A stretch of DNA of 64,000 bases, taken from NCBI GenBank assembly GCA_016933025.1, contig JAFGBT010000030.1:62001-126000 (forward strand), given 5' to 3'. Below, one piece after another: positions 3-11,802 of this stretch. Numbering within the stretch: the stretch's first letter is position 1; the number at the start of each line of letters is the position of its first letter. The notes below the pieces were generated by a model. That model made no database searches, was not told where the DNA came from, and was given only the letters and a program-made list of their open reading frames with translations. A program made the position numbers and the translations under genes. The DNA is from Spirochaetota bacterium. Lineage in GTDB: Bacteria > Spirochaetota > UBA4802 > UBA5550.

Positions 3-548
3 GTATTCGATAAAAGTAGTTTTGATATTGAAGAATATAAAATAAAAATATGTAAAGATAATCCATTCGATGAAATATGGATGGTCTTCTATGATTTTAA
101 AAAACAAAAGTGGGGAGTTCTAAAAAGATTAACCATGAAACAAGAAACAATTACCTATTTGCAGCTATTATCCGAGCAGATAAGATTTATTAAATCTCAA
201 CAATTGCGTATATCAAATTACTCGCTCTTATTGCAAGCTGGATTAGTTTCAATATTTCGGCTGGATTATTTTCCATATGCATGGGTATTGATTTTATTTT
301 CTGTTGTACTTTCTTCATATGCTGTTGCTTTCATCATTCATTCTCAATATAGCATGATGAAGTGCCGGAAGAGAGAGAAACGCATTATTGATACCGGTAC
401 AGATGAATTGAAATTCGTTATTACCGGCGAATATGGAGAATACCCTGAATCAAATACAAAATTCTGGAAAGATTGGCTATTCTTCATTCCTTTTACAATT
501 ATCAATATAATTGCATGTGTAATCGCAATTATTATAATTTTAAGATAG
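3..548 (+). CDS. Membrane protein of unknown function, 5' end cut by window edge
   Basis: The reading frame is open from base 3 without a stop, so the true start probably lies left of the window. About 181 residues are visible; ATG codons at 81 and 135 are possible internal starts. The first part is charged. Two hydrophobic segments follow (coded at about 210-345), then a polar loop, then a last hydrophobic segment (about 475-545), so three membrane helices are likely. It stops 11 bases before hsdM, which suggests co-transcription with the restriction-modification genes. I do not recognise the family. Small membrane proteins beside restriction systems sometimes act as accessory effectors, but here that is only inference. 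Base composition is much more AT-rich than hsdM. Confidence 0.55.
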   Translation, partial: VFDKSSFDIEEYKIKICKDNPFDEIWMVFYDFKKQKWGVLKRLTMKQETITYLQLLSEQIRFIKSQQLRISNYSLLLQAGLVSIFRLDYFPYAWVLILFSVVLSSYAVAFIIHSQYSMMKCRKREKRIIDTGTDELKFVITGEYGEYPESNTKFWKDWLFFIPFTIINIIACVIAIIIILR

Positions 549-559
549 AGAAATTACCT

Positions 560-2578
560 ATGTCCCAAAACGTCCGTGAATTAGCAAACTTCATCTGGTC
601 CGTGGCCGACGAACTGCTGCGGGACCACTACAAGCGCAGTAAATACGCCGATGTCATTTACCCTTTTACCGTGTTCCGGCGGCTCGATTGCATACTTGAA
701 AAGAACCACGAAAAGGTGCTGGAAGCCTATAATAAATACAAGAAGCAGTTGAAAGACCTGACCGGCGTACTGACCAAGGCTTCCGGGTACAGCTTTTACA
801 ATACCTCGAAATATACGTTCGAAAAGCTGTTGAACGATTCAGTCAACATCAAAGAAAACATGCTCCATTACCTTAACGGCTTTTCAGACAACATTCAGGA
901 AATCATCGACAAGTTTAAGTTTCGCCAGGAGATACAGAGCCTCTACGAAAAAGAGCTGCTATACAAGGTCGTGAAGAAATTCGCGGACCCGCAGATAAAC
1001 CTTCACCCGGATAACATCACCCACATGGAAATGGGATATGTTTTCGAAGAGCTTATTAGGAAGTTCAACGAGGCCACGAACGAAAACCCAGGCGAGCACT
1101 TTACGCCGCGTGAAATAATCCATCTGATGGTCAATGTCCTTATATCGAAAGACAGGGACAAGCTCGGAAAGAAAGGCATAATAACAACCGTGTATGACCC
1201 CGCCTGCGGTACCGGCGGCATGCTCACGGTCGCGAAGGAAGAGCTGATAAACCTGAACCCTGACGCGAAGATTGAGCTGTTCGGTCAGGAAAGCCAGGAA
1301 GAGACATACGCGGCATGTAAATCCGACATGTTAATCAAGAACGAAGACCCGGATAAGATAAAATTCGGCTCTTCGTTTTCAAAGGACGGATTCCCGCGCC
1401 AGCACTTTGACTATATTCTTTCAAATCCGCCCTATGGCAAGAACTGGAAATACGATGAGGAATTCATCAAGGAAGAAGCCAAAAAAGGCGAGGCCGGGCG
1501 CTTCGAGGCGGGTCTGCCGGGCATAAGCGACGGCCAGCTCCTATTCCTCCAACACATGATTTCCAAGATGCACAGGGACGGCCACCAGACGCGCATAGCC
1601 ATCGTTTTCAACGGTTCTCCGCTCTTCAACGGCGACGCGGGGGAAGGGGAGTCGGAAATCCGCCGCTGGATATGTGAGAACGACTGGATGGAAGCGATAA
1701 TCGGCCTTCCGAACCAGCTATTCTACAATACCGGCATTTTCACCTACATCTGGGTGCTGACGAACAAGAAAGAACCGGACCGCAAGGGCAAGATAGCCCT
1801 CATCGATGCCCGCGACCTGTATGAAAAGATGGGCAAGAGCCTGGGCGACAAGCGTAATTATATTACGAATGACCAGATTAAGGAAATCACAGCCCTCTAT
1901 CTTGGCAACGTACCCAATGGAAGGGTGAAGCTGTTCAGCAACACAGACTTCGCGTATCGCAAGGTCCAGATTGAACGGCCCCTGCGATTAAACTTTCTCG
2001 CTTCCGAAGAGCGAATAGCGCGGCTGGATGCTGAATCGGCATTTGCGAATCTTGCCGTGTCGAAGAAAAAGAAGCAGAACGAGCGGGAGAAGGAAGAAAA
2101 GGAGGGCCGGGATTTTCAGGAAAGCATGAAGAACGTACTCCGCTCATTGCCGCAGACATTGTACAAGGACTGGAAATTGTTCGAACCTGTTCTGGATGAT
2201 GTTTTCGGAAAAAGCGATGTTAAGATTAAAAAGCCGATAAAGACAGCTATCTATAAATCACTTTCAGAAAAAGACGAAACAGCGGAAATCGTCTACGATG
2301 ACGGCCAGCCGCTGCCGGATACCGATTTACGCGACCATGAATATATCCCCTATGAGCAGGATATACAGTCTTACTTCGACAGGGAAGTTAAGCCCCATGC
2401 TCCTGATGCCTGGATAAATGAGGATTATATTGATTCAAAGGATGGTAAAATCGGCCGCGTGGGGTATGAGATTAACTTCAACCGCTATTTCTATAAGTAC
2501 CAACCGCCGCGACAGCTGAATGAGATTGAAAAAGATATTCGAGAAGTAGAAAAGGAAATTATTGAAATGCTTAAATAG
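560..2578 (+). CDS. hsdM: Type I restriction-modification system DNA methyltransferase subunit
   Basis: Modification subunit that transfers a methyl group from S-adenosylmethionine to adenine N6 at sites chosen by HsdS; also part of the restriction complex. The 672-residue protein has an N-terminal helical domain, then the Rossmann-like methyltransferase core with motif I DPACGTGGM (residues 213-221) and catalytic motif IV NPPYG (289-293). A charged, possibly coiled-coil C-terminal part follows. An upstream in-frame ATG at 473 would overlap the preceding gene by 76 bases; the ATG at 560 gives the usual N-terminus and was chosen. First gene of the run hsdM, HNH gene, hsdS, hsdR. Composition is GC-richer than the flanking genes. 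Confidence 0.95.
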   Translation: MSQNVRELANFIWSVADELLRDHYKRSKYADVIYPFTVFRRLDCILEKNHEKVLEAYNKYKKQLKDLTGVLTKASGYSFYNTSKYTFEKLLNDSVNIKENMLHYLNGFSDNIQEIIDKFKFRQEIQSLYEKELLYKVVKKFADPQINLHPDNITHMEMGYVFEELIRKFNEATNENPGEHFTPREIIHLMVNVLISKDRDKLGKKGIITTVYDPACGTGGMLTVAKEELINLNPDAKIELFGQESQEETYAACKSDMLIKNEDPDKIKFGSSFSKDGFPRQHFDYILSNPPYGKNWKYDEEFIKEEAKKGEAGRFEAGLPGISDGQLLFLQHMISKMHRDGHQTRIAIVFNGSPLFNGDAGEGESEIRRWICENDWMEAIIGLPNQLFYNTGIFTYIWVLTNKKEPDRKGKIALIDARDLYEKMGKSLGDKRNYITNDQIKEITALYLGNVPNGRVKLFSNTDFAYRKVQIERPLRLNFLASEERIARLDAESAFANLAVSKKKKQNEREKEEKEGRDFQESMKNVLRSLPQTLYKDWKLFEPVLDDVFGKSDVKIKKPIKTAIYKSLSEKDETAEIVYDDGQPLPDTDLRDHEYIPYEQDIQSYFDREVKPHAPDAWINEDYIDSKDGKIGRVGYEINFNRYFYKYQPPRQLNEIEKDIREVEKEIIEMLK

Positions 2579-2599
2579 TTAAAAGTTTGGAGTATTTTG

Positions 2600-3928
2600 A
2601 TGTCATTATTATCATTAGTAGAAGCCTCTATGTATTCTGGATATTCAATTGAATTGCTACAATACTTTTCGAAGAAATGTCCTAAATATAAAGATAATAA
2701 AAAATTAAAAATTCAGAATAAATCTAAAATAAAATATATAGATGAGATTGAATTAAAAGAATATATTGAATATCTAAAACAACCATGGCCAGTTAGAAAA
2801 GGTTCGACACGTGCTGATATTCCTGATGCTATTAAAGAAGATGTAAAAAGAGAATCCCACTATGGATGTGCAATATGTGGCCATATGGATAATGGTGAAG
2901 TTGCACATATCGAAGCATACTCCAAGTATTTTAACAATAGTCCCGATAATCTAATTTATTTGTGTCCCAATCATCATACAAAATATGATTATGGATATAT
3001 TCCAGTAAGTAATTTAACCATGGATGTTATTCGCTCTGCAAAACAAATTAAACGAGAATCTCGTAGAAGGATGTTGCGATTTGAGGATAACACAGTAAAA
3101 GAATTTACTTCTCTAATCAAATATATAAAAAAATTGCAGAAGGATATTGATGATGCGCCAAAAGAAGAGATAGCTTCAATAAAAATTAATGAATTAAAAA
3201 ATATAATGAATTTTGCACCTGAAATAACCCAAAAAGCTATTGAGACCGCAAAAAAAGATAAAGAATCAGAAATAAGTAAAATAATTTTAAAGAATGCGCC
3301 CAGAGTATCGAAATTTGCTGTTGGTATTTTAGAAAAAAGCGAAAAGCAAATATTAAATGATTCACAAAGGATGGTCGAAGCATCTGCTGACATTATTATT
3401 GATTTAGATGAAGTCGAATGCCCTCACTGTAATGGACGCGGTCAAACAGGTCTGGTTGGGGATATATGCTCATACTGTGGTGGCTCATGCTTTATTAGCC
3501 AAGAGAAAGCTGATGCGTATGACCCGGATGATTTAGACGAGGTTGAATGCCCTCACTGTAATGGACGCGGTCAAACAGGTCTGGTTGGGGATATATGCTC
3601 TTACTGTGGCGGCTCATGCTTTATTAGCCAAGAGAAAGCTGATGCGTATGACCCGGATGATTTAGATGAAGTCGAATGCCCTCATTGTAATGGACGCGGG
3701 CAAACAGGTCTGGTTGGAGATATATGCTCATATTGTGGTGGTTCATGTTTTATTAGTAAGGAAGAAGCCAATAAATATGACCCTGACAAGCTTGATGAAG
3801 TTGAATGCCCTCATTGCCATGGAAGCGGCCAGACAGGTCTGGTTGGGGATATATGCAAACTTTGCGAAGGAAGCCAATTTGTATCAAAATCAATTAGAAC
3901 GGCTTATTATGAAAAATATGGGAAATAA
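2600..3928 (+). CDS. HNH nuclease-like protein with four tandem zinc-ribbon repeats
   Basis: Unusual gene placed between hsdM and hsdS. The 442-residue protein has an HNH-type core: CxxC at 90-93, His103, Asn117, Cys122 and His125/His126, the pattern expected of a metal-dependent HNH endonuclease with a structural zinc. A lysine-rich helical section follows (about 150-265). The C-terminus is four 43-residue repeats (from residue 268), each with CPHC and CxxC (or CxxCEG) pairs resembling DnaJ-type zinc fingers, so four zinc sites are predicted. ATG at 2600 follows TTGGAG at good spacing. The gene is very AT-rich compared with hsdM, suggesting separate acquisition. Nuclease activity is inferred from the motif; the role of the repeats is unknown. 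Confidence 0.8.
   Translation: MSLLSLVEASMYSGYSIELLQYFSKKCPKYKDNKKLKIQNKSKIKYIDEIELKEYIEYLKQPWPVRKGSTRADIPDAIKEDVKRESHYGCAICGHMDNGEVAHIEAYSKYFNNSPDNLIYLCPNHHTKYDYGYIPVSNLTMDVIRSAKQIKRESRRRMLRFEDNTVKEFTSLIKYIKKLQKDIDDAPKEEIASIKINELKNIMNFAPEITQKAIETAKKDKESEISKIILKNAPRVSKFAVGILEKSEKQILNDSQRMVEASADIIIDLDEVECPHCNGRGQTGLVGDICSYCGGSCFISQEKADAYDPDDLDEVECPHCNGRGQTGLVGDICSYCGGSCFISQEKADAYDPDDLDEVECPHCNGRGQTGLVGDICSYCGGSCFISKEEANKYDPDKLDEVECPHCHGSGQTGLVGDICKLCEGSQFVSKSIRTAYYEKYGK
3401..3916 (+). repeat. Four tandem 129-bp coding repeats
   Basis: Units begin at 3401, 3530, 3659 and 3788, an exact 129-base period (43 codons). Units 1-3 are nearly identical in DNA with only scattered, mostly third-position changes; unit 4 has diverged more. 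The repeats lie wholly inside the HNH gene and keep its frame. Near-identity at the DNA level suggests recent expansion, and copy number could vary between strains by recombination or slippage. Confidence 0.95.
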
Positions 3929-3964
3929 ATATATTAAAAAATATTTTTTTAAATGATTTAATTT

Positions 3965-5323
3965 ATGGCGTTTAATAAATTCGACAAATCATATCCTTCA
4001 TGCAAGGCATCAGGTAGTGAACAGATTGGGGTTATTCCTTCCGAATGGAATTATCTTCCCCTTAAACGCATTGTCTCAACTAAAATAACAGACGGCCCGC
4101 ATGAAACCCCGGATTTTATCCCTGATGGTATTCCATTCATATCAGCCGAAGCTATTAAAAACAATAAAATAGATTTCAGCTTAAAACGAGGAGATATATC
4201 TCCTGAACTACATAAACAGTATTGCAAAAAGACGAAACCTCAATCGAATGATATATTCTTTATTAAATCTGGTGCAACAACAGGAAATATCGCAATCGTT
4301 GAGACTGACATAGAATTTAGTATCTGGTCTCCCTTGGCGGTTATTAGATGTGATCCTTTGCAAATGTATCATAAATATCTGTTTTACTTCATGCAATCAA
4401 ATGAATTTAAAAAACAGGTCGAAATTTACTGGTCATTTGGGACACAACAAAATATCGGCATGGGTGTAATAAGTAGATTGTGTACGCCAGTACCATCTGT
4501 TGATGAACAGCAAGCCATAGCCTCCTTCCTCGACCGGGAAACCACCCGCATCAACAGGATAATCGAAAAGCAGACCCGGCTCATCGAGCTGCTCAAAGAA
4601 AAACGTTCCGCACTTATAACGCAGGCCGTCACCAAGGGGCTTGACCCGAATGCGAAGATGAAGGATTCCGGTGTGGAGTGGATTGGGGAGATACCAGAAG
4701 GGTGGGGCGTAATTCGTTTAAGATTTACTATTATTTTTAATCCTAAAAAATCAGGTATTACCGGTATAGAAAATAATTCAGAAGTACAATTTGTTCCCAT
4801 GGAATTAGTACCTGATAATGACGAAAACCTTTCACTTGAACAAACTGCTGTATACCAAGATGTAAGAGATGGATATACATATTTTCAAGATGGCGATATT
4901 CTAATCGCAAAAATCACTCCTTGCTTCGAAAATGGGAAAGGTGCTATTGCCAATAATCTGACAAACTGTATTGGATTTGGTACTACTGAATTACATGTGT
5001 TGCGACCAAAGCAGGATATGATTCAAACAAAATATTTATTTTATTTAACGAAACTACAATCTTTCAGAGAAATTGGCGAATCCATGATGAAAGGAGCTGC
5101 CGGGCAAAAAAGAGTGCCTGAATTATTTATAAAAGACTGTTACTTGCCAATTCCACCATTATTAGAACAAAAAGGAATTGTGGATTATATTGATGAAAGC
5201 AATAATTATACTAATAGTTTAATTTCAAAAATCGAAAAACAAATCGACCTGCTCAACGAATACAAGCAATCACTCATCACAGCAGCAGTTACAGGAAAAA
5301 TAGACGTGAGGAACGTTCAATGA
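3965..5323 (+). CDS. hsdS: Type I restriction-modification specificity subunit
   Basis: DNA-recognition subunit, 452 residues, setting the bipartite target of the methylase and nuclease. It has the classical double layout: target-recognition domain 1 (about 20-180), a conserved helical spacer (181-220, beginning VDEQQAIASFLD), target-recognition domain 2 (about 235-410) opened by the repeat phrase GVEWIGEIPEGW, and a C-terminal helix (415-445). The recognition domains are AT-rich while the spacers match the GC-richer codon use of hsdM and hsdR, a sign that recognition domains were swapped in. It overlaps hsdR by 4 bases (ATGA), indicating translational coupling. Confidence 0.93.
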   Translation: MAFNKFDKSYPSCKASGSEQIGVIPSEWNYLPLKRIVSTKITDGPHETPDFIPDGIPFISAEAIKNNKIDFSLKRGDISPELHKQYCKKTKPQSNDIFFIKSGATTGNIAIVETDIEFSIWSPLAVIRCDPLQMYHKYLFYFMQSNEFKKQVEIYWSFGTQQNIGMGVISRLCTPVPSVDEQQAIASFLDRETTRINRIIEKQTRLIELLKEKRSALITQAVTKGLDPNAKMKDSGVEWIGEIPEGWGVIRLRFTIIFNPKKSGITGIENNSEVQFVPMELVPDNDENLSLEQTAVYQDVRDGYTYFQDGDILIAKITPCFENGKGAIANNLTNCIGFGTTELHVLRPKQDMIQTKYLFYLTKLQSFREIGESMMKGAAGQKRVPELFIKDCYLPIPPLLEQKGIVDYIDESNNYTNSLISKIEKQIDLLNEYKQSLITAAVTGKIDVRNVQ

Positions 5324-8274
5324 AGATATTAGAACGGGACATGGAGAGCATCATTGAAAGCGATTTAGTCAATTCCGGTTACTTTCGCGGCTCTCCTGAT
5401 AAGTATGATAAAACATACTGTATGGATACTGAAAATCTTATCAATTTCATCATAGCCACGCAGAAGGATAAATGGGAAGAATACCGGAAACAGCACGGCG
5501 AACGGGCCAGGGACACCCTGACAGCCAAAATAAAGCAGGCAATTGACGATAAGGGCAGTCTCGAAGTCTTCCGCAAGCCGTTTAAATCCCATGGCGTATA
5601 TTTCGACCTCGCGTATTTCAAACCCGCAAGCGGTATGAATGAAAGCTTCCAGAAGAAGTACCAGGGGAACATAGTAAGCGTCACCCGGCAGGTCAAATAC
5701 AGCCTCCACAATGAGAATTCCCTCGATATGGTCGTTTTCCTGAACGGCCTGCCCATCGCCACGCTGGAATTGAAGGACAAGCTGACCGGCTCCGGCTATT
5801 CGGTAGAAAACGCGATAAAGCAATACCGCAAGGACCGCAGCAGCAAGGAACCGCTCTTCAAGTTCGGGCGCTGCCTGGTCCATTTCGCCGTTGACGAAGA
5901 CATGGTGTACATGACCACGCACCTGAAAGACGAGAACACGAAATTCCTGCCGTTCAACAAGGGCCACGAAGGCGAGGCAGGGAACCCGCCTACCTACGGC
6001 TTTTCATCGGAATATCTCTGGAAGGAGATACTGCATAAAGACAGCATCCTTGAACTGATTCAGCTCTTCATCCAGATGACAGATGAGCTTGATGAGGACG
6101 GCAAGCCGACCGGGAAGAAGATAATCATATTCCCTCGCTACCATCAGCTCGACGCAGTAAGAAAGCTCGTGACTCATTCAAAAGACAAGAAGTGCGGTAA
6201 TTATTATCTCATTCAGCACAGCGCGGGGAGCGGCAAGTCGAATACGATAAGCTGGCTCGCTCACCAGCTCTCCATCCTTCATGACAAAAACGATATGAAT
6301 GTGTTCGATTCCATCATTGTTGTCACCGACCGCCGGATACTCGACAGGCAACTGCGCACGAACATTCTCGCCTTTGAGCAGAATCCCGGCGTGGTCGCGG
6401 GCATTGACAAGGGTTCGAAACAGCTCAAAGACGAGTTGGAAGCCGGGACCAAGATAATCGTAACGACATTGCAGAAGTTCCCCTATATCGAGGAGCAGAT
6501 AAAGGCGCTGCCAGGCAAGCGTTTCGCCGTTATTATCGACGAGGCCCATTCATCATCGAGCGGTGAAATGTCGAAAAGCCTGAAAACCGTCCTGAAACTC
6601 AATGAGCCGGACGACGACCCTGCGGACGATGAAGATGACGTTACCTGGGAAGACGAGATAGAACAGCAGCTCAAAGCAAGGGGCAGGCAGCCCAATATCA
6701 GCTATTTTGCCTTTACCGCCACGCCAAAGCCGAAGACGTTGGAACTGTTCGGGACCAAGCAGAGCGACGGCACGTTCAAGCCGTTTCACCTCTACCCGAT
6801 GAAGCAGGCCATTCAGGAAGGCTTCATCAAGGACGTGCTGGTCAATTACACGACCTATTCGACCCTTCTGCACCTTGTAAAGACCATAACATCTGACCCG
6901 GAATACGACAAGATAAAGGCATCGTCTCTCCTGAAAACCTATGTCGAATTGAGCAAGCAGACCATCGAGAAAAAGACAAAGATTATCATAGACCATTTCC
7001 GTGAAAACTGTCTCGATGAAATACCTGATTCCCACGGCAAAGGTCAGGCCAAGGCCATGGTGGTTTGCTCATCCCGCGCCCAGGCGGTTAAGTATAAAAA
7101 GGCCATCGATAAATACTTGAAGGACAATAAAATCGGCTTCAAGGCGCTTGTGGCCTTTTCAGGCACGGTCGAGGACGAGTTCAAGAACAAATACTCCGAA
7201 GAGGGGATGAACGGCTTCTCGGAGGACAAGACAGCCAATAAATTCAAGGAAAGCCAGTACAAGATACTTGTGGTGGCGAACAAGTTCCAGACAGGGTTCG
7301 ACCAGCCTCTATTGTATGCCATGTATGTGAATAAAAAGCTCATTGGCGTAAATGCCGTCCAGACCATCAGCCGCCTGAACCGGGTCTGTGACGGCAAGAA
7401 GGAGCCGATAACTATCGATTTTTACAACGCGGCGGATGTCATTAAAAAGTCTTTTCAGGACTTCTACGAGGATACGACGCTGGTTGAGGCCAGTGACCCG
7501 GACAAGCTCTATACCTATCAGGAAACTCTTGAAATGTTCAGGTATTACAAGCAGGACGAAATCGATGCTTTCTGTAAGATAGCTATGCAGAATATCAAAC
7601 AGCAGGATAAATTAAATGCCGTCCTGGTCCCTGTTGTGGAACGGTTCAAACAGGATACAAAAGAGCATAAAGAGCAGTTCCGGGCGACCTTGAAAACCTA
7701 TGTGCGGGTATATTCCTTCCTTTCGCAGATTATATCGTTTTCGGATGTGGAGCTTGAAAAGCTGTATATTTTCGGAAGGATATTGTTGCGGAAGTTGATT
7801 CTTGATAAGGGAACCCTGCCGTATGAGGTCTTGCAGCAGGTCGATTTGGATAAGATTGAAATTAAGAAGAAAGGGACCGGCATAGAGCTTGAAAAGGGTA
7901 AGGGCGGCAAGCTCAAACCAGGGGAAAAAGACCCTCATGCCCGCAGCATCGAGCTGAAAGAACACCTGTCAATCATTATCAGTGAAATCAATGACAAATA
8001 TGCCACGGATTTCAATGACTCGGACAAATCAGTTGCCGATACCCTGCTGAACGTGGTAGGGCAGGACCAGGATTTCGAGGCGCAGGTCAAGAACAACCCC
8101 AAGGAAAACGTCTGGTGGGCCTTCCAGACCAAGTTTAACAAAGAGCTTCAAAACATGATAGACAAGCACTTTGAATTTTACAAGAAAATCAATGACAACG
8201 AGGATATCAAGAAAGACTTCATGAAGCAGATGTTCGATGCATTGTATAACAAGATGATTGTGAAGCCGACGTGA
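5320..8274 (+). CDS. hsdR: Type I restriction endonuclease motor subunit
   Basis: ATP-dependent translocase and nuclease, 984 residues, which cuts unmodified DNA in complex with HsdM and HsdS. The N-terminal PD-(D/E)xK nuclease domain shows Asp136 and the ELK triad at Glu150-Lys152. The helicase part has Walker A (GSGKS, 303-307), a DEAH box (407-410), the motif III phrase FTATP, and motif VI (QTISRLNR). A C-terminal helical region for complex assembly follows. No internal stop or frameshift was seen, so the enzyme appears intact. Last gene of the hsd run. Confidence 0.95.
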   Translation: MKILERDMESIIESDLVNSGYFRGSPDKYDKTYCMDTENLINFIIATQKDKWEEYRKQHGERARDTLTAKIKQAIDDKGSLEVFRKPFKSHGVYFDLAYFKPASGMNESFQKKYQGNIVSVTRQVKYSLHNENSLDMVVFLNGLPIATLELKDKLTGSGYSVENAIKQYRKDRSSKEPLFKFGRCLVHFAVDEDMVYMTTHLKDENTKFLPFNKGHEGEAGNPPTYGFSSEYLWKEILHKDSILELIQLFIQMTDELDEDGKPTGKKIIIFPRYHQLDAVRKLVTHSKDKKCGNYYLIQHSAGSGKSNTISWLAHQLSILHDKNDMNVFDSIIVVTDRRILDRQLRTNILAFEQNPGVVAGIDKGSKQLKDELEAGTKIIVTTLQKFPYIEEQIKALPGKRFAVIIDEAHSSSSGEMSKSLKTVLKLNEPDDDPADDEDDVTWEDEIEQQLKARGRQPNISYFAFTATPKPKTLELFGTKQSDGTFKPFHLYPMKQAIQEGFIKDVLVNYTTYSTLLHLVKTITSDPEYDKIKASSLLKTYVELSKQTIEKKTKIIIDHFRENCLDEIPDSHGKGQAKAMVVCSSRAQAVKYKKAIDKYLKDNKIGFKALVAFSGTVEDEFKNKYSEEGMNGFSEDKTANKFKESQYKILVVANKFQTGFDQPLLYAMYVNKKLIGVNAVQTISRLNRVCDGKKEPITIDFYNAADVIKKSFQDFYEDTTLVEASDPDKLYTYQETLEMFRYYKQDEIDAFCKIAMQNIKQQDKLNAVLVPVVERFKQDTKEHKEQFRATLKTYVRVYSFLSQIISFSDVELEKLYIFGRILLRKLILDKGTLPYEVLQQVDLDKIEIKKKGTGIELEKGKGGKLKPGEKDPHARSIELKEHLSIIISEINDKYATDFNDSDKSVADTLLNVVGQDQDFEAQVKNNPKENVWWAFQTKFNKELQNMIDKHFEFYKKINDNEDIKKDFMKQMFDALYNKMIVKPT

Positions 8275-8302: not shown

Positions 8303-8656
8303 ATGAGCGATAGGAAAAATAATATCAACTTAATGAATCTATTAGTCAAAATATATAACGGTTCAGAGAAAAAACCAAGATTTAGCTTGGAACAGGTCAG
8401 GTTATTACAAGAATTAGTAACAATCGGCTTTCTGAATCCATCTGCTATTAAATTTATTGGAGACAGCCAAGGTGTATCACAATGTGCGATGACAGGTGAA
8501 TACCCTTTAACGATTGAGGGCAAAGAATATATGGAAATGGGATGGTATAAATCTTTGCAGCAGTCAGGGAAATATCAACTGGTTCGGGATATTGCGGCAT
8601 TCATCGGTGCTGCTGCGGGTGTGGTTATAGGAATTCTAAAAATCATCTATGGATGA
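8303..8656 (+). CDS. Small protein with C-terminal membrane anchor, unknown function
   Basis: A 117-residue protein starting 28 bases after hsdR with AAGGGG before its ATG, so it may be the last gene of the restriction operon. The first about 90 residues are polar and helical, with a winged-helix-like feel (segment around EQVRLLQELVTIGFLNPSAI). The last 20 residues (AFIGAAAGVVIGILKIIYG) form one membrane helix with small residues. I do not recognise a family. Tail-anchored small proteins occur in some defence islands; whether this one is linked to restriction is inferred only from position. Confidence 0.6.
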   Translation: MSDRKNNINLMNLLVKIYNGSEKKPRFSLEQVRLLQELVTIGFLNPSAIKFIGDSQGVSQCAMTGEYPLTIEGKEYMEMGWYKSLQQSGKYQLVRDIAAFIGAAAGVVIGILKIIYG

Positions 8657-8712
8657 AATTTTTTATTTTAATGAATCACAATTATAAAATTCGTGTGACA
8701 TAATATTTTTAA

Positions 8713-9978: not shown

Positions 9979-10179
9979 ATGGTTGAAATACAACACGAAC
10001 ATTTATTTATCAGTACAATTACAAGAGCAGTTATGTGCATTAGTGTATTGACAAAGCAATTAAAGTCTGATACTAATGATACTGTCAATTCAATAGCCGA
10101 TGCTCCATTGAATGACATATATCGCGATAGAGTCATTGTGACATACATGATACTCAAAAAATGGAAACGTGATTCCTGA
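9979..10179 (+). CDS. Small hypothetical protein coupled to the recombinase
   Basis: A 66-residue helical protein with no recognised family. Its stop and the recombinase ATG overlap (TGATG at 10177-10181), so it is likely translated together with the recombinase. It could be a recombination directionality factor or regulator, but nothing in the sequence proves this. The ribosome-binding site is weak. Confidence 0.4.
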   Translation: MVEIQHEHLFISTITRAVMCISVLTKQLKSDTNDTVNSIADAPLNDIYRDRVIVTYMILKKWKRDS

Positions 10180-11741
10180 TGATAATTGATGACCTCGAAA
10201 TACTGCACGAGATAATTGACGGCATAAAGGAATCCTCGCGGCAAGGACGGGAACCAGCGTTCAGTTACGAGCGTATAAGCGACAAAGTACAGAAGGATGG
10301 CCTTTCATTGCAGTTCCAGGAGGATGGAGCGGCCAGATACGCGGCCAGCAAGCGACTTAATATAATAAAATGCTTCTCCATAGTGGAAAGCGCAAAGTCG
10401 AAAGGCCGCAAGATATTCAACAAAATGCTCGACCTTGCGGTAGAACACGGCATAAAGCATATTATATTCAAGAACACCGATAGAATGAGCAGGAATTATT
10501 ACGATTTGATAAGGATTCAGGAACTCATTGACAAGCATGATTTCAACATCCATTTCTATCAGGCATATAGGGTTCTCAATAAACAATCGACCTATATTGA
10601 TGACTTCATCCTCGATGTTGAGGTGGCGGCGGCAAAGCAGTTAAGCAAGAAGCTTTCGTATGAGGTTAAGACCCACAATAAATACAAGGCGGGGAAGGGG
10701 ATAGCCCCCTGTATTTCTCCCTACGGGTATAAATATAACAAAAAGACCAAAATGCATGAAATCGATAAAACACGTGAAAAGGATTGTCGCTTTATATTCG
10801 ATGAATTTGACACTCATAAATACAGCCTGACCGAATTTACCGTTTTAATTAACAAACGAGGTATCAGGTCCAAGACCAAGAAGTTATGGAAAAAGTCACA
10901 ACTATACTTCATGCTCACCAACCCGTTCTATCACGGTGAATTTATATATCATGGTGAAATATTGCCCGGAACTCATAAAAAATACTATAATAAGGACCGC
11001 TATGAAGAGCGGTGCAAAATATTGAGCGGCAGGTTCATCGGCACAAAGAAGTGGGAAACCGACTACCTGCTGGCAAAGTTTATTAAATGCGCCTCGTGCG
11101 GCAAAACCATGACCGGCACATTGAAGAAAGAAAAATATATATACTATAAGCACGATTGCCCCAATGCCCCGAGGCAGGTCAACATCATAGAAGACGATAT
11201 ATTCGCCCTCATTGACGGCCACATGCAAAACTTCGCCTTTTCCGTTGAATTCGGGGACTATTTGAAACAGCTCATCAGGGAATCGACTGACTACAAAAAG
11301 GAAGACGCGCGTTTGGAGCGGGTAAGGTTTAACCGCCGTATATCCGCGCTCGAAGCCAAGCAGGAGAAGCTCCTTGACCTGTATGCGGATGATAAAATTG
11401 ACCGGGGTATATTGAACAAGAAGATTGAGCAGTATCGCATGGAAATCAGGCTGCTGGAAAGGCAGAGGGAATCGCTGTCGGTCGATACCGAGAAGTTCTA
11501 TATCAAGGTCGTTGAGGTCATCGACATGTTCCGCCAGTTACCCCAGATATACCTCGAAGCCCCCAGGGAAGGGAAGGTCGAGATACTCCGGTCCATGGCC
11601 ACGGCCATCAAGCTGGATGGGGACGACCTCGAAATCCTCTGGGAGAAGCCGTACAGCTTCTTTGTGGAGCCGCAGGTCCTGGCCCTCCAAAAAGAAACGA
11701 GCGGGAAAGTTCCCACTCGTCCTATTCTGCTCCCCCGGTAG
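10179..11741 (+). CDS. Large serine recombinase (site-specific integrase)
   Basis: A 520-residue recombinase likely to move the island. The N-terminal resolvase domain has the catalytic Ser34 in YERIS, then GLSLQFQ, and an FKNTDRMSRN stretch typical of the active-site arginines. A recombinase domain follows (about 175-290, including PYGYKYNKK). A zinc-ribbon section has Cys304, Cys307 and Cys327, and the C-terminal part is a coiled coil (about 370-425), the layout of large serine integrases. It overlaps the small upstream gene by one base. The last codons and the TAG stop (11739-11741) lie inside the 3' end of the opposite-strand tRNA-Asn gene, so the gene reaches the attachment point. It appears intact. 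Confidence 0.9.
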   Translation: MIIDDLEILHEIIDGIKESSRQGREPAFSYERISDKVQKDGLSLQFQEDGAARYAASKRLNIIKCFSIVESAKSKGRKIFNKMLDLAVEHGIKHIIFKNTDRMSRNYYDLIRIQELIDKHDFNIHFYQAYRVLNKQSTYIDDFILDVEVAAAKQLSKKLSYEVKTHNKYKAGKGIAPCISPYGYKYNKKTKMHEIDKTREKDCRFIFDEFDTHKYSLTEFTVLINKRGIRSKTKKLWKKSQLYFMLTNPFYHGEFIYHGEILPGTHKKYYNKDRYEERCKILSGRFIGTKKWETDYLLAKFIKCASCGKTMTGTLKKEKYIYYKHDCPNAPRQVNIIEDDIFALIDGHMQNFAFSVEFGDYLKQLIRESTDYKKEDARLERVRFNRRISALEAKQEKLLDLYADDKIDRGILNKKIEQYRMEIRLLERQRESLSVDTEKFYIKVVEVIDMFRQLPQIYLEAPREGKVEILRSMATAIKLDGDDLEILWEKPYSFFVEPQVLALQKETSGKVPTRPILLPR

Positions 11742-11802
11742 GACTCGAACCTACGACCCAGTGGTTAACAGCCACTTGCTCTACCGACTGAGCTACAGGG
11801 GA
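11730..11802 (-). tRNA. tRNA-Asn (GTT)
   Basis: Read on the minus strand, a full cloverleaf folds: acceptor TCCCCTG/CGGGGGA, D arm GCTC...GAGC, anticodon loop CTGTTAA (anticodon GTT) in a 5-pair stem, and T arm GTAGG-TTCGAGT-CCTAC. Discriminator base G; CCA is not encoded. The 3' end overlaps the last 12 bases of the serine recombinase gene, making this tRNA the probable island attachment site. Confidence 0.95.

Follow-up and report, generated by a model that had tools for sequence, protein, structure and literature searches.

A 442-residue protein that joins an HNH nuclease domain to a tandem array of DnaJ-type zinc modules is encoded between the hsdM and hsdS genes of a type I restriction operon in a Spirochaetota bacterium. 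The gene is probably a stand-alone, horizontally moving anti-phage nuclease, which would occupy the gap between hsdM and hsdS as a cargo slot and draw its transcription from the operon. The arrangement most likely adds a second, independent layer of phage defence, because related bacteria hold other candidate anti-virus genes in the same slot.

Results

An HNH nuclease gene is embedded in a complete type I restriction operon

In the window (the whole stretch of 64,000 nucleotides that was analyzed), the open reading frame of the guest gene spans 2600-3928 on the + strand and encodes 442 amino acid residues. It starts with an ATG at 2600, 21 bp past the hsdM stop codon, and ends 36 bp ahead of the hsdS ATG at 3965. 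Profile libraries, including Pfam and PADLOC, identified the neighbours as genuine hsdM, hsdS and hsdR genes that make up a complete type I set. The placement between hsdM and hsdS, which had been proposed in a sequence-only reading of this DNA, was thereby confirmed, and the gene has the features of an embedded gene, i.e., an extra gene between hsd genes on the same strand and with close spacing. The features of the region are as follows:

3..548, + strand: 3′ portion of the gene (297 aa) that immediately precedes hsdM, also present in the same-genus genome G003; its start lies outside the window
560..2578, + strand: hsdM, type I methyltransferase subunit (PADLOC MTase_I, E = 3e-270)
2579..3964, + strand: hsdM-hsdS interval, putative cargo slot, occupied by other genes in relatives
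2600..3928, + strand: HNH nuclease with tandem DnaJ-type zinc modules, 442 aa (full-length homologues)
2600..2785, + strand: N-terminal domain, residues 1-62, predicted winged helix-turn-helix (AlphaFold2 model, Foldseek)
2867..3001, + strand: HNH domain, residues 90-134 (Pfam HNH_2, TagI alignment, conservation counts)
3020..3391, + strand: helical spacer from the HNH domain to the repeats, about residues 141-264 (AlphaFold2 models)
3419..3547, + strand: zinc repeat 1 (CPHCNGRG...CSYCGGSC)
3548..3676, + strand: zinc repeat 2, identical to repeat 1 in protein sequence
3677..3805, + strand: zinc repeat 3
3806..3925, + strand: zinc repeat 4, diverged terminal repeat
3965..5323, + strand: hsdS, specificity subunit
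5320..8274, + strand: hsdR, restriction subunit

From N- to C-terminus, the protein thus comprises a winged helix (predicted), the HNH domain, a helical segment as spacer and four zinc modules of the DnaJ type (CxxCxGxG), each 43 residues long. Pfam assigned HNH_2 (5.2e-7) to residues 90-134 and DnaJ_CXXCXGXG (9.3e-11) to the repeats. A Foldseek search with the full-length model retrieved helical bundles only. No description of an HNH domain combined with a tandem DnaJ-like array was found in the libraries searched or in the open (non-subscription) literature.

The hsdM-hsdS gap holds different genes in related operons

The same operon is present in G003, with 91.7% nucleotide identity over orf3 plus hsdM and 91.1% over hsdR. 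The similarity between the two genomes runs from an upstream integrase gene through the 297-aa gene and hsdM, ends six bases before the hsdM stop codon, returns inside hsdS and continues through hsdR. At the protein level, hsdM and hsdR are each 96% identical to their G003 counterparts, compared to just 38% for hsdS (window 3965-5323 versus L053:3357-4658). Because of this difference, target recognition is judged to have been exchanged between the two operons together with the slot cargo. The G003 gap (L053:4660-6323, minus strand) holds genes for an HTH/Peptidase_M78 protein and a DUF4411 protein instead of the HNH gene, and these two form a toxin-antitoxin-like pair.

In more distant relatives within the phylum, the gap is occupied by Abi_2 (L056, L058, L059), RhuM (L057) or DUF4145 together with unassigned genes (L055), and in one further relative it contains no gene. 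The guest is therefore absent, with other genes in its place, from G003 and five other relatives. L057 has a second slot, between hsdS and hsdR (L057:5549-7800), with an FRG-domain gene and a SIR2-like gene, the latter recognized by eye and without a Pfam match. The guest gene also differs from its neighbours in GC3, which is 0.24 compared to 0.63 for hsdM and 0.66 for hsdR. These comparisons mark the gene as a guest rather than a subunit of the type I enzyme, and the space between hsdM and hsdS as a site where accessory defence genes are exchanged. Six type I operons on plasmids, from more distant relatives, have overlapping or abutting hsdM and hsdS genes and no gap gene, so slot use characterizes this group and does not extend to all enzymes of the kind.

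A 117-aa gene with no family match lies downstream of hsdR (window 8303-8656); G003 has a counterpart with 57% identity at the corresponding position, which makes the gene part of the cassette that the two operons share. Farther downstream, a serine recombinase gene (window 10179-11741) overlaps the end of a tRNA-Asn gene (11729-11802). A 41-bp near-direct repeat at window 11682-11722 recurs about 15 kb upstream, at L043:8559-8600, and possibly marks a mobile element or a dispersed terminator-like repeat. It was not taken as an att site, despite lying beside tRNA-Asn, since its sequence is palindromic and could belong to a dispersed element resembling a terminator. Upstream of the operon, an 82-nt repeat occurs twice, 1.4 kb apart and 84% identical (L043:7246-7327 and 8613-8694).

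The zinc-repeat array is acidic and resembles the DnaJ cysteine-rich domain

TRF detected a 129-bp period with 3.5 copies and 88% matches over 3400-3856, and a 21-mer repeat seed occurred 4 times compared to 0.03 expected by chance. The repeats are considered to lie far beyond chance because both the 43-residue period and the protein sequence are kept across phyla. They had previously been described as four nearly identical and recent; four modules are indeed present, but a recent origin holds for repeats 1 and 2 only, which differ at 3 of 120 nucleotides, all synonymous. The differences rise to 23-24 of 120 nucleotides for repeat 3 and to 52-53 for repeat 4. Across seven members, the last repeat had a mean similarity of 0.59 to the last repeats of other species, compared to 0.51 to the internal repeats of its own protein. 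Repeat 4 is, as judged from sequence, an old and distinct end module. Internal repeats are usually more alike within than between proteins (0.92 versus 0.60 for the window protein), which suggests homogenization or repeated expansion.

The 11 members carry 4 to 7 repeats each, with 4 in the window protein and on the prophage contig L008, 5 in three Hyphomicrobiales, 6 in Neobacillus and 7 in Sumerlaeota. Methylobacterium/Methylorubrum members have 5 or 6, differing between species. The expectation that repeat number varies was thus borne out, both between species and within Methylobacterium (5 versus 6). The spacing of the repeats is 43 residues, with the exception of one case of 42 and of 41 in Methylobacterium/Methylorubrum.

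The array is probably zinc-bound. The DnaJ CxxCxGxG zinc domain profile PF00684 scored 42.3 bits against a cut-off of 32.7, and the PDB matches to the array were DnaJ structures only. No Pfam DnaJ/J-domain match was found in the window protein, and the NCBIfam DnaJ model scored far under its cut-off; a DnaJ chaperone was ruled out on the absence of the J domain. CxxCxGxG zinc knuckles are common to the window protein, the DnaJ cysteine-rich domain and anti-TRAP (RtpA), with RtpA matching four stretches of the window protein weakly. In contrast to DnaJ, the window protein lacks the J domain and has uniform 43-residue tandem modules with two motifs each, fused to a nuclease, whereas anti-TRAP is a small free-standing protein. 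Searches with the repeats only returned members of this family or fragments of them and no other array-bearing protein, so module sharing gave no clue to function.

All 11 members have an acidic array (net charge -6 to -33, pI 4.4-5.6), whereas the HNH domain is basic (+2 to +6) in all nine members with a complete one. Because of this charge distribution, direct nucleic-acid binding by the array is unlikely, and DNA- or RNA-binding zinc fingers were rejected as an explanation. The earlier idea that changes in the repeats alter DNA or RNA binding is accordingly not upheld, as the charges point to protein contacts. From charge and family resemblance, a role in protein contact or sensing, or in self-inhibition, fits better.

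The nuclease half has a complete HNH site

The HNH_2 profile (PF13391) matched the window protein with 29.9 bits against a curated cut-off of 21. Alignment with TagI placed the zinc ligands at C90, C93, C122 and H125 and the active site at H103, N117, H126 and D130, so that the fourth zinc ligand is expected to be H125, while H126 corresponds to the histidine that binds the metal. The catalytic H-N-H residues and the structural zinc ligands of an HNH endonuclease are therefore all present and pair one to one with those of TagI. The core residues named in the sequence-only reading (C90xxC93, H103, N117, H125/H126), its coordinates and its module length of 43 residues proved right. TagI requires H229, N245, H254 and D258, and its zinc is held by three cysteines and the aspartate of a CxxD motif, with CxxC or CxxH in other family members (PMC6212794). 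H103, H126, D130, C90, C93, C122 and H125 are invariant in all members that cover these positions; the one exception is N117, in whose place the four aligned Methylobacterium/Methylorubrum members have G.

A profile of residues 1-170 built from ten members matched TagI with E = 2.8e-4. AlphaFold2 gave a good model of this segment (mean pLDDT 86), with pLDDT values of 90-96 over residues 1-62 (model m9326bc28c7ac). The top Foldseek ranks for residues 1-170 were the defence nucleases EcoKMcrA, Cap5 and ScoMcrA, with probabilities of 0.91-1.00; since their E-values of 0.016-0.1 all exceed 0.01, this fold match is consistent with the assignment and not independently significant. No Pfam match was found for residues 1-62. 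Their predicted secondary structure, strand-helix-helix-strand-strand-helix, is that of a winged helix-turn-helix, and MerR-family BmrR appeared lower in the Foldseek list as a weak match. The modelled winged helix is a possible DNA-binding domain.

These resemblances bear on a reading of the protein as a type IV enzyme, in which the winged helix or the zinc array would read a modified base and the HNH domain would cut phage DNA carrying it. Such an enzyme would complement the type I enzyme, which cuts unmodified DNA. We regard this as rather unlikely, although the closest solved HNH domains are those of the type IV enzymes TagI, EcoKMcrA and ScoMcrA, and NCBIfam gave a weak match to a phosphorothioate-dependent enzyme. 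Winged helix-HNH fusions that read 6mA exist (PMC11037411), and TgvAB is a precedent for a type IV system within a type I operon (PMC11411939). The window protein nevertheless has no SRA, PUA, EVE, SBD or other known modification reader in Pfam, and none in NCBIfam or PADLOC; it also lacks an NEco-type reader and differs from TagI, ScoMcrA and EcoKMcrA in its predicted winged helix and C-terminal zinc array. The acidic array is an unlikely base reader. Type I methyltransferases are N6-adenine methylases, and a 6mA reader beside one would have to avoid the host's own marks. Moreover, the fold does not single out type IV enzymes, as Cap5, a cyclic-nucleotide-activated HNH enzyme, ranks equally in Foldseek. 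Cap5 is a CBASS SAVED-HNH effector and likewise an HNH defence nuclease, whereas the window protein has no SAVED domain and no cyclase lies nearby in its operon.

Homologues, several of them in defence islands or mobile contexts, lie away from hsd genes

A scan of 84,980 species genomes yielded 13 loci, most of them with full or partial members. Homologues with the same architecture and 4-7 repeats are scattered sporadically over Bacillota, alphaproteobacteria, Sumerlaeota and prophage-like contigs. The family is rare: it was present in 1 of 345 phylum genomes sampled (the window's own), in 1 of 194 genomes of the Neobacillus family and in 3 of 398 from the order to which L010 belongs; the wider phylum sample contained no homologue apart from the window's own copy.

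At L010, the gene lies directly downstream of genes for SIR2 and a short Argonaute (SPARSA-type; PADLOC 4.5e-184) and an HTH-GTPase, and in Neobacillus (L011) it is flanked by Wadjet JetA-D on one side and by a gene for a DrmC-like nuclease on the other. The homologue adjoins phage tail genes at L008 and L067 and an integrase gene at L012. In three Hyphomicrobiales genomes, the HTH-GTPase gene immediately precedes the HNH-zinc gene (L010:6866-8992, L021:6870-8993 and L040:10021-12147, the last on the minus strand). It encodes a conserved protein of ~709 aa with GxxxxGKST and DSRG motifs, and the two genes may form a two-gene defence system that is not named in the libraries searched. A search of the window's genome and four others, whose negative result is weak, did not find this partner, so the autonomy of the guest is an assumption. 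Among the Methylobacterium/Methylorubrum copies that were inspected, the neighbours are metal-efflux genes and insertion sequences and no defence island is obvious, which speaks against a defence role. The N-to-G replacement and the 41-residue period suggest that these copies (L009, L014, L018, L020) form a divergent subfamily.

No relatives of HsdM, HsdS or HsdR were found in 17 homologue loci (230,572 bases), whereas the same search found them at once in the controls L053-L060. The gene thus has no conserved linkage to hsd genes, even the orthologous G003 operon lacks it, and a type I subunit was rejected as an explanation. A specific tie to type I systems, as first suggested, does not hold. 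The absence of homologues near hsd genes, which had been set in advance as refuting the proposal, argues against an obligate hsd link and leaves the defence role standing. The idea that a second nuclease is present and probably contributes a further layer of attack gains from the complete and conserved HNH site, the homologues in defence islands and the exchangeable slot.

The lack of hsd linkage also bears on a latent suicide (abortive-infection) nuclease that would be held by HsdMSR through the array as a docking part and freed by phage anti-restriction proteins. The operon position, the precedent of PrrC, which is controlled by EcoprrI, the resemblance of many slot genes of relatives to toxins or Abi proteins and the suitability of an acidic array for protein docking all speak for it. 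With no homologue accompanying hsd genes, however, Hsd binding cannot be the conserved function of the array, and we consider this explanation unlikely.

Decayed copies with a frameshift or an in-frame stop occur in an Acidobacteria bacterium (L013:8995-9716) and in Hyphomicrobiales (L042:9101-10216), as expected for a mobile defence gene. They would also suit a selfish or neutral passenger, either a homing-type HNH gene or mobile-element cargo that confers no defence. HNH domains are common in homing endonucleases, and the sporadic distribution, mobile contexts and low GC3 agree with such an origin. Against this origin, the gene sits between operon genes, in frame with the operon, instead of inside a gene. 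In addition, the array and the catalytic residues are under purifying selection (only synonymous changes separate repeats 1 and 2), and the gene recurs beside unrelated defence systems. A passenger role is thus quite improbable.

Discussion

In the anti-phage reading that we favour, the HNH domain, together with the predicted winged helix, would cut invader DNA. The acidic, probably zinc-bound array would contact protein and not nucleic acid; it may either sense a phage or host protein or fold onto the basic nuclease part and keep it inactive until infection. The nuclease would not depend on HsdMSR for its action and would form a second line against phages that escape type I restriction, in a manner comparable to the embedded TgvAB and PrrC systems.

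TgvAB is a type IV GmrSD-like system in a Vibrio cholerae type I operon and works separately from it (PMC11411939); like the arrangement proposed here, it places a further restriction system, independent of the first, within a type I operon. TgvAB, however, consists of two GmrSD (DUF262/ParB-like plus nuclease) genes between hsdS and hsdR, whereas the insertion in the window is a single gene, unrelated to these and encoding zinc repeats, that follows hsdM and precedes hsdS. PrrC, embedded in EcoprrI (PMC3874165, PMC3710099), is likewise an extra nuclease gene in an hsd operon. It belongs to the ABC-ATPase/HEPN tRNA nucleases and is held by the Hsd complex, in contrast to the HNH protein described here, with its homologues away from hsd genes. 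HNH auxiliary nucleases have also been reported around BREX-related systems (PMC12839542).

More tentatively, the protein may represent an undescribed, widely dispersed HNH defence family in which the acidic DnaJ/anti-TRAP-like array is a protein-recognition ruler or an autoinhibitory arm, the number of repeats tunes the response, and the Hyphomicrobiales members act in a two-gene system with the HTH-GTPase; we hold this fuller picture to be possible, though doubtful.

If the favoured reading is right, these proteins would form a family of HNH defence nucleases that is new and has an uncommon module at its C-terminus. The two same-genus operons, about 91% identical and carrying different cargo, would then provide a clean natural comparison for the hsdM-hsdS exchange slot, and the array would be a testable case of DnaJ-like zinc modules serving a nuclease instead of a chaperone.
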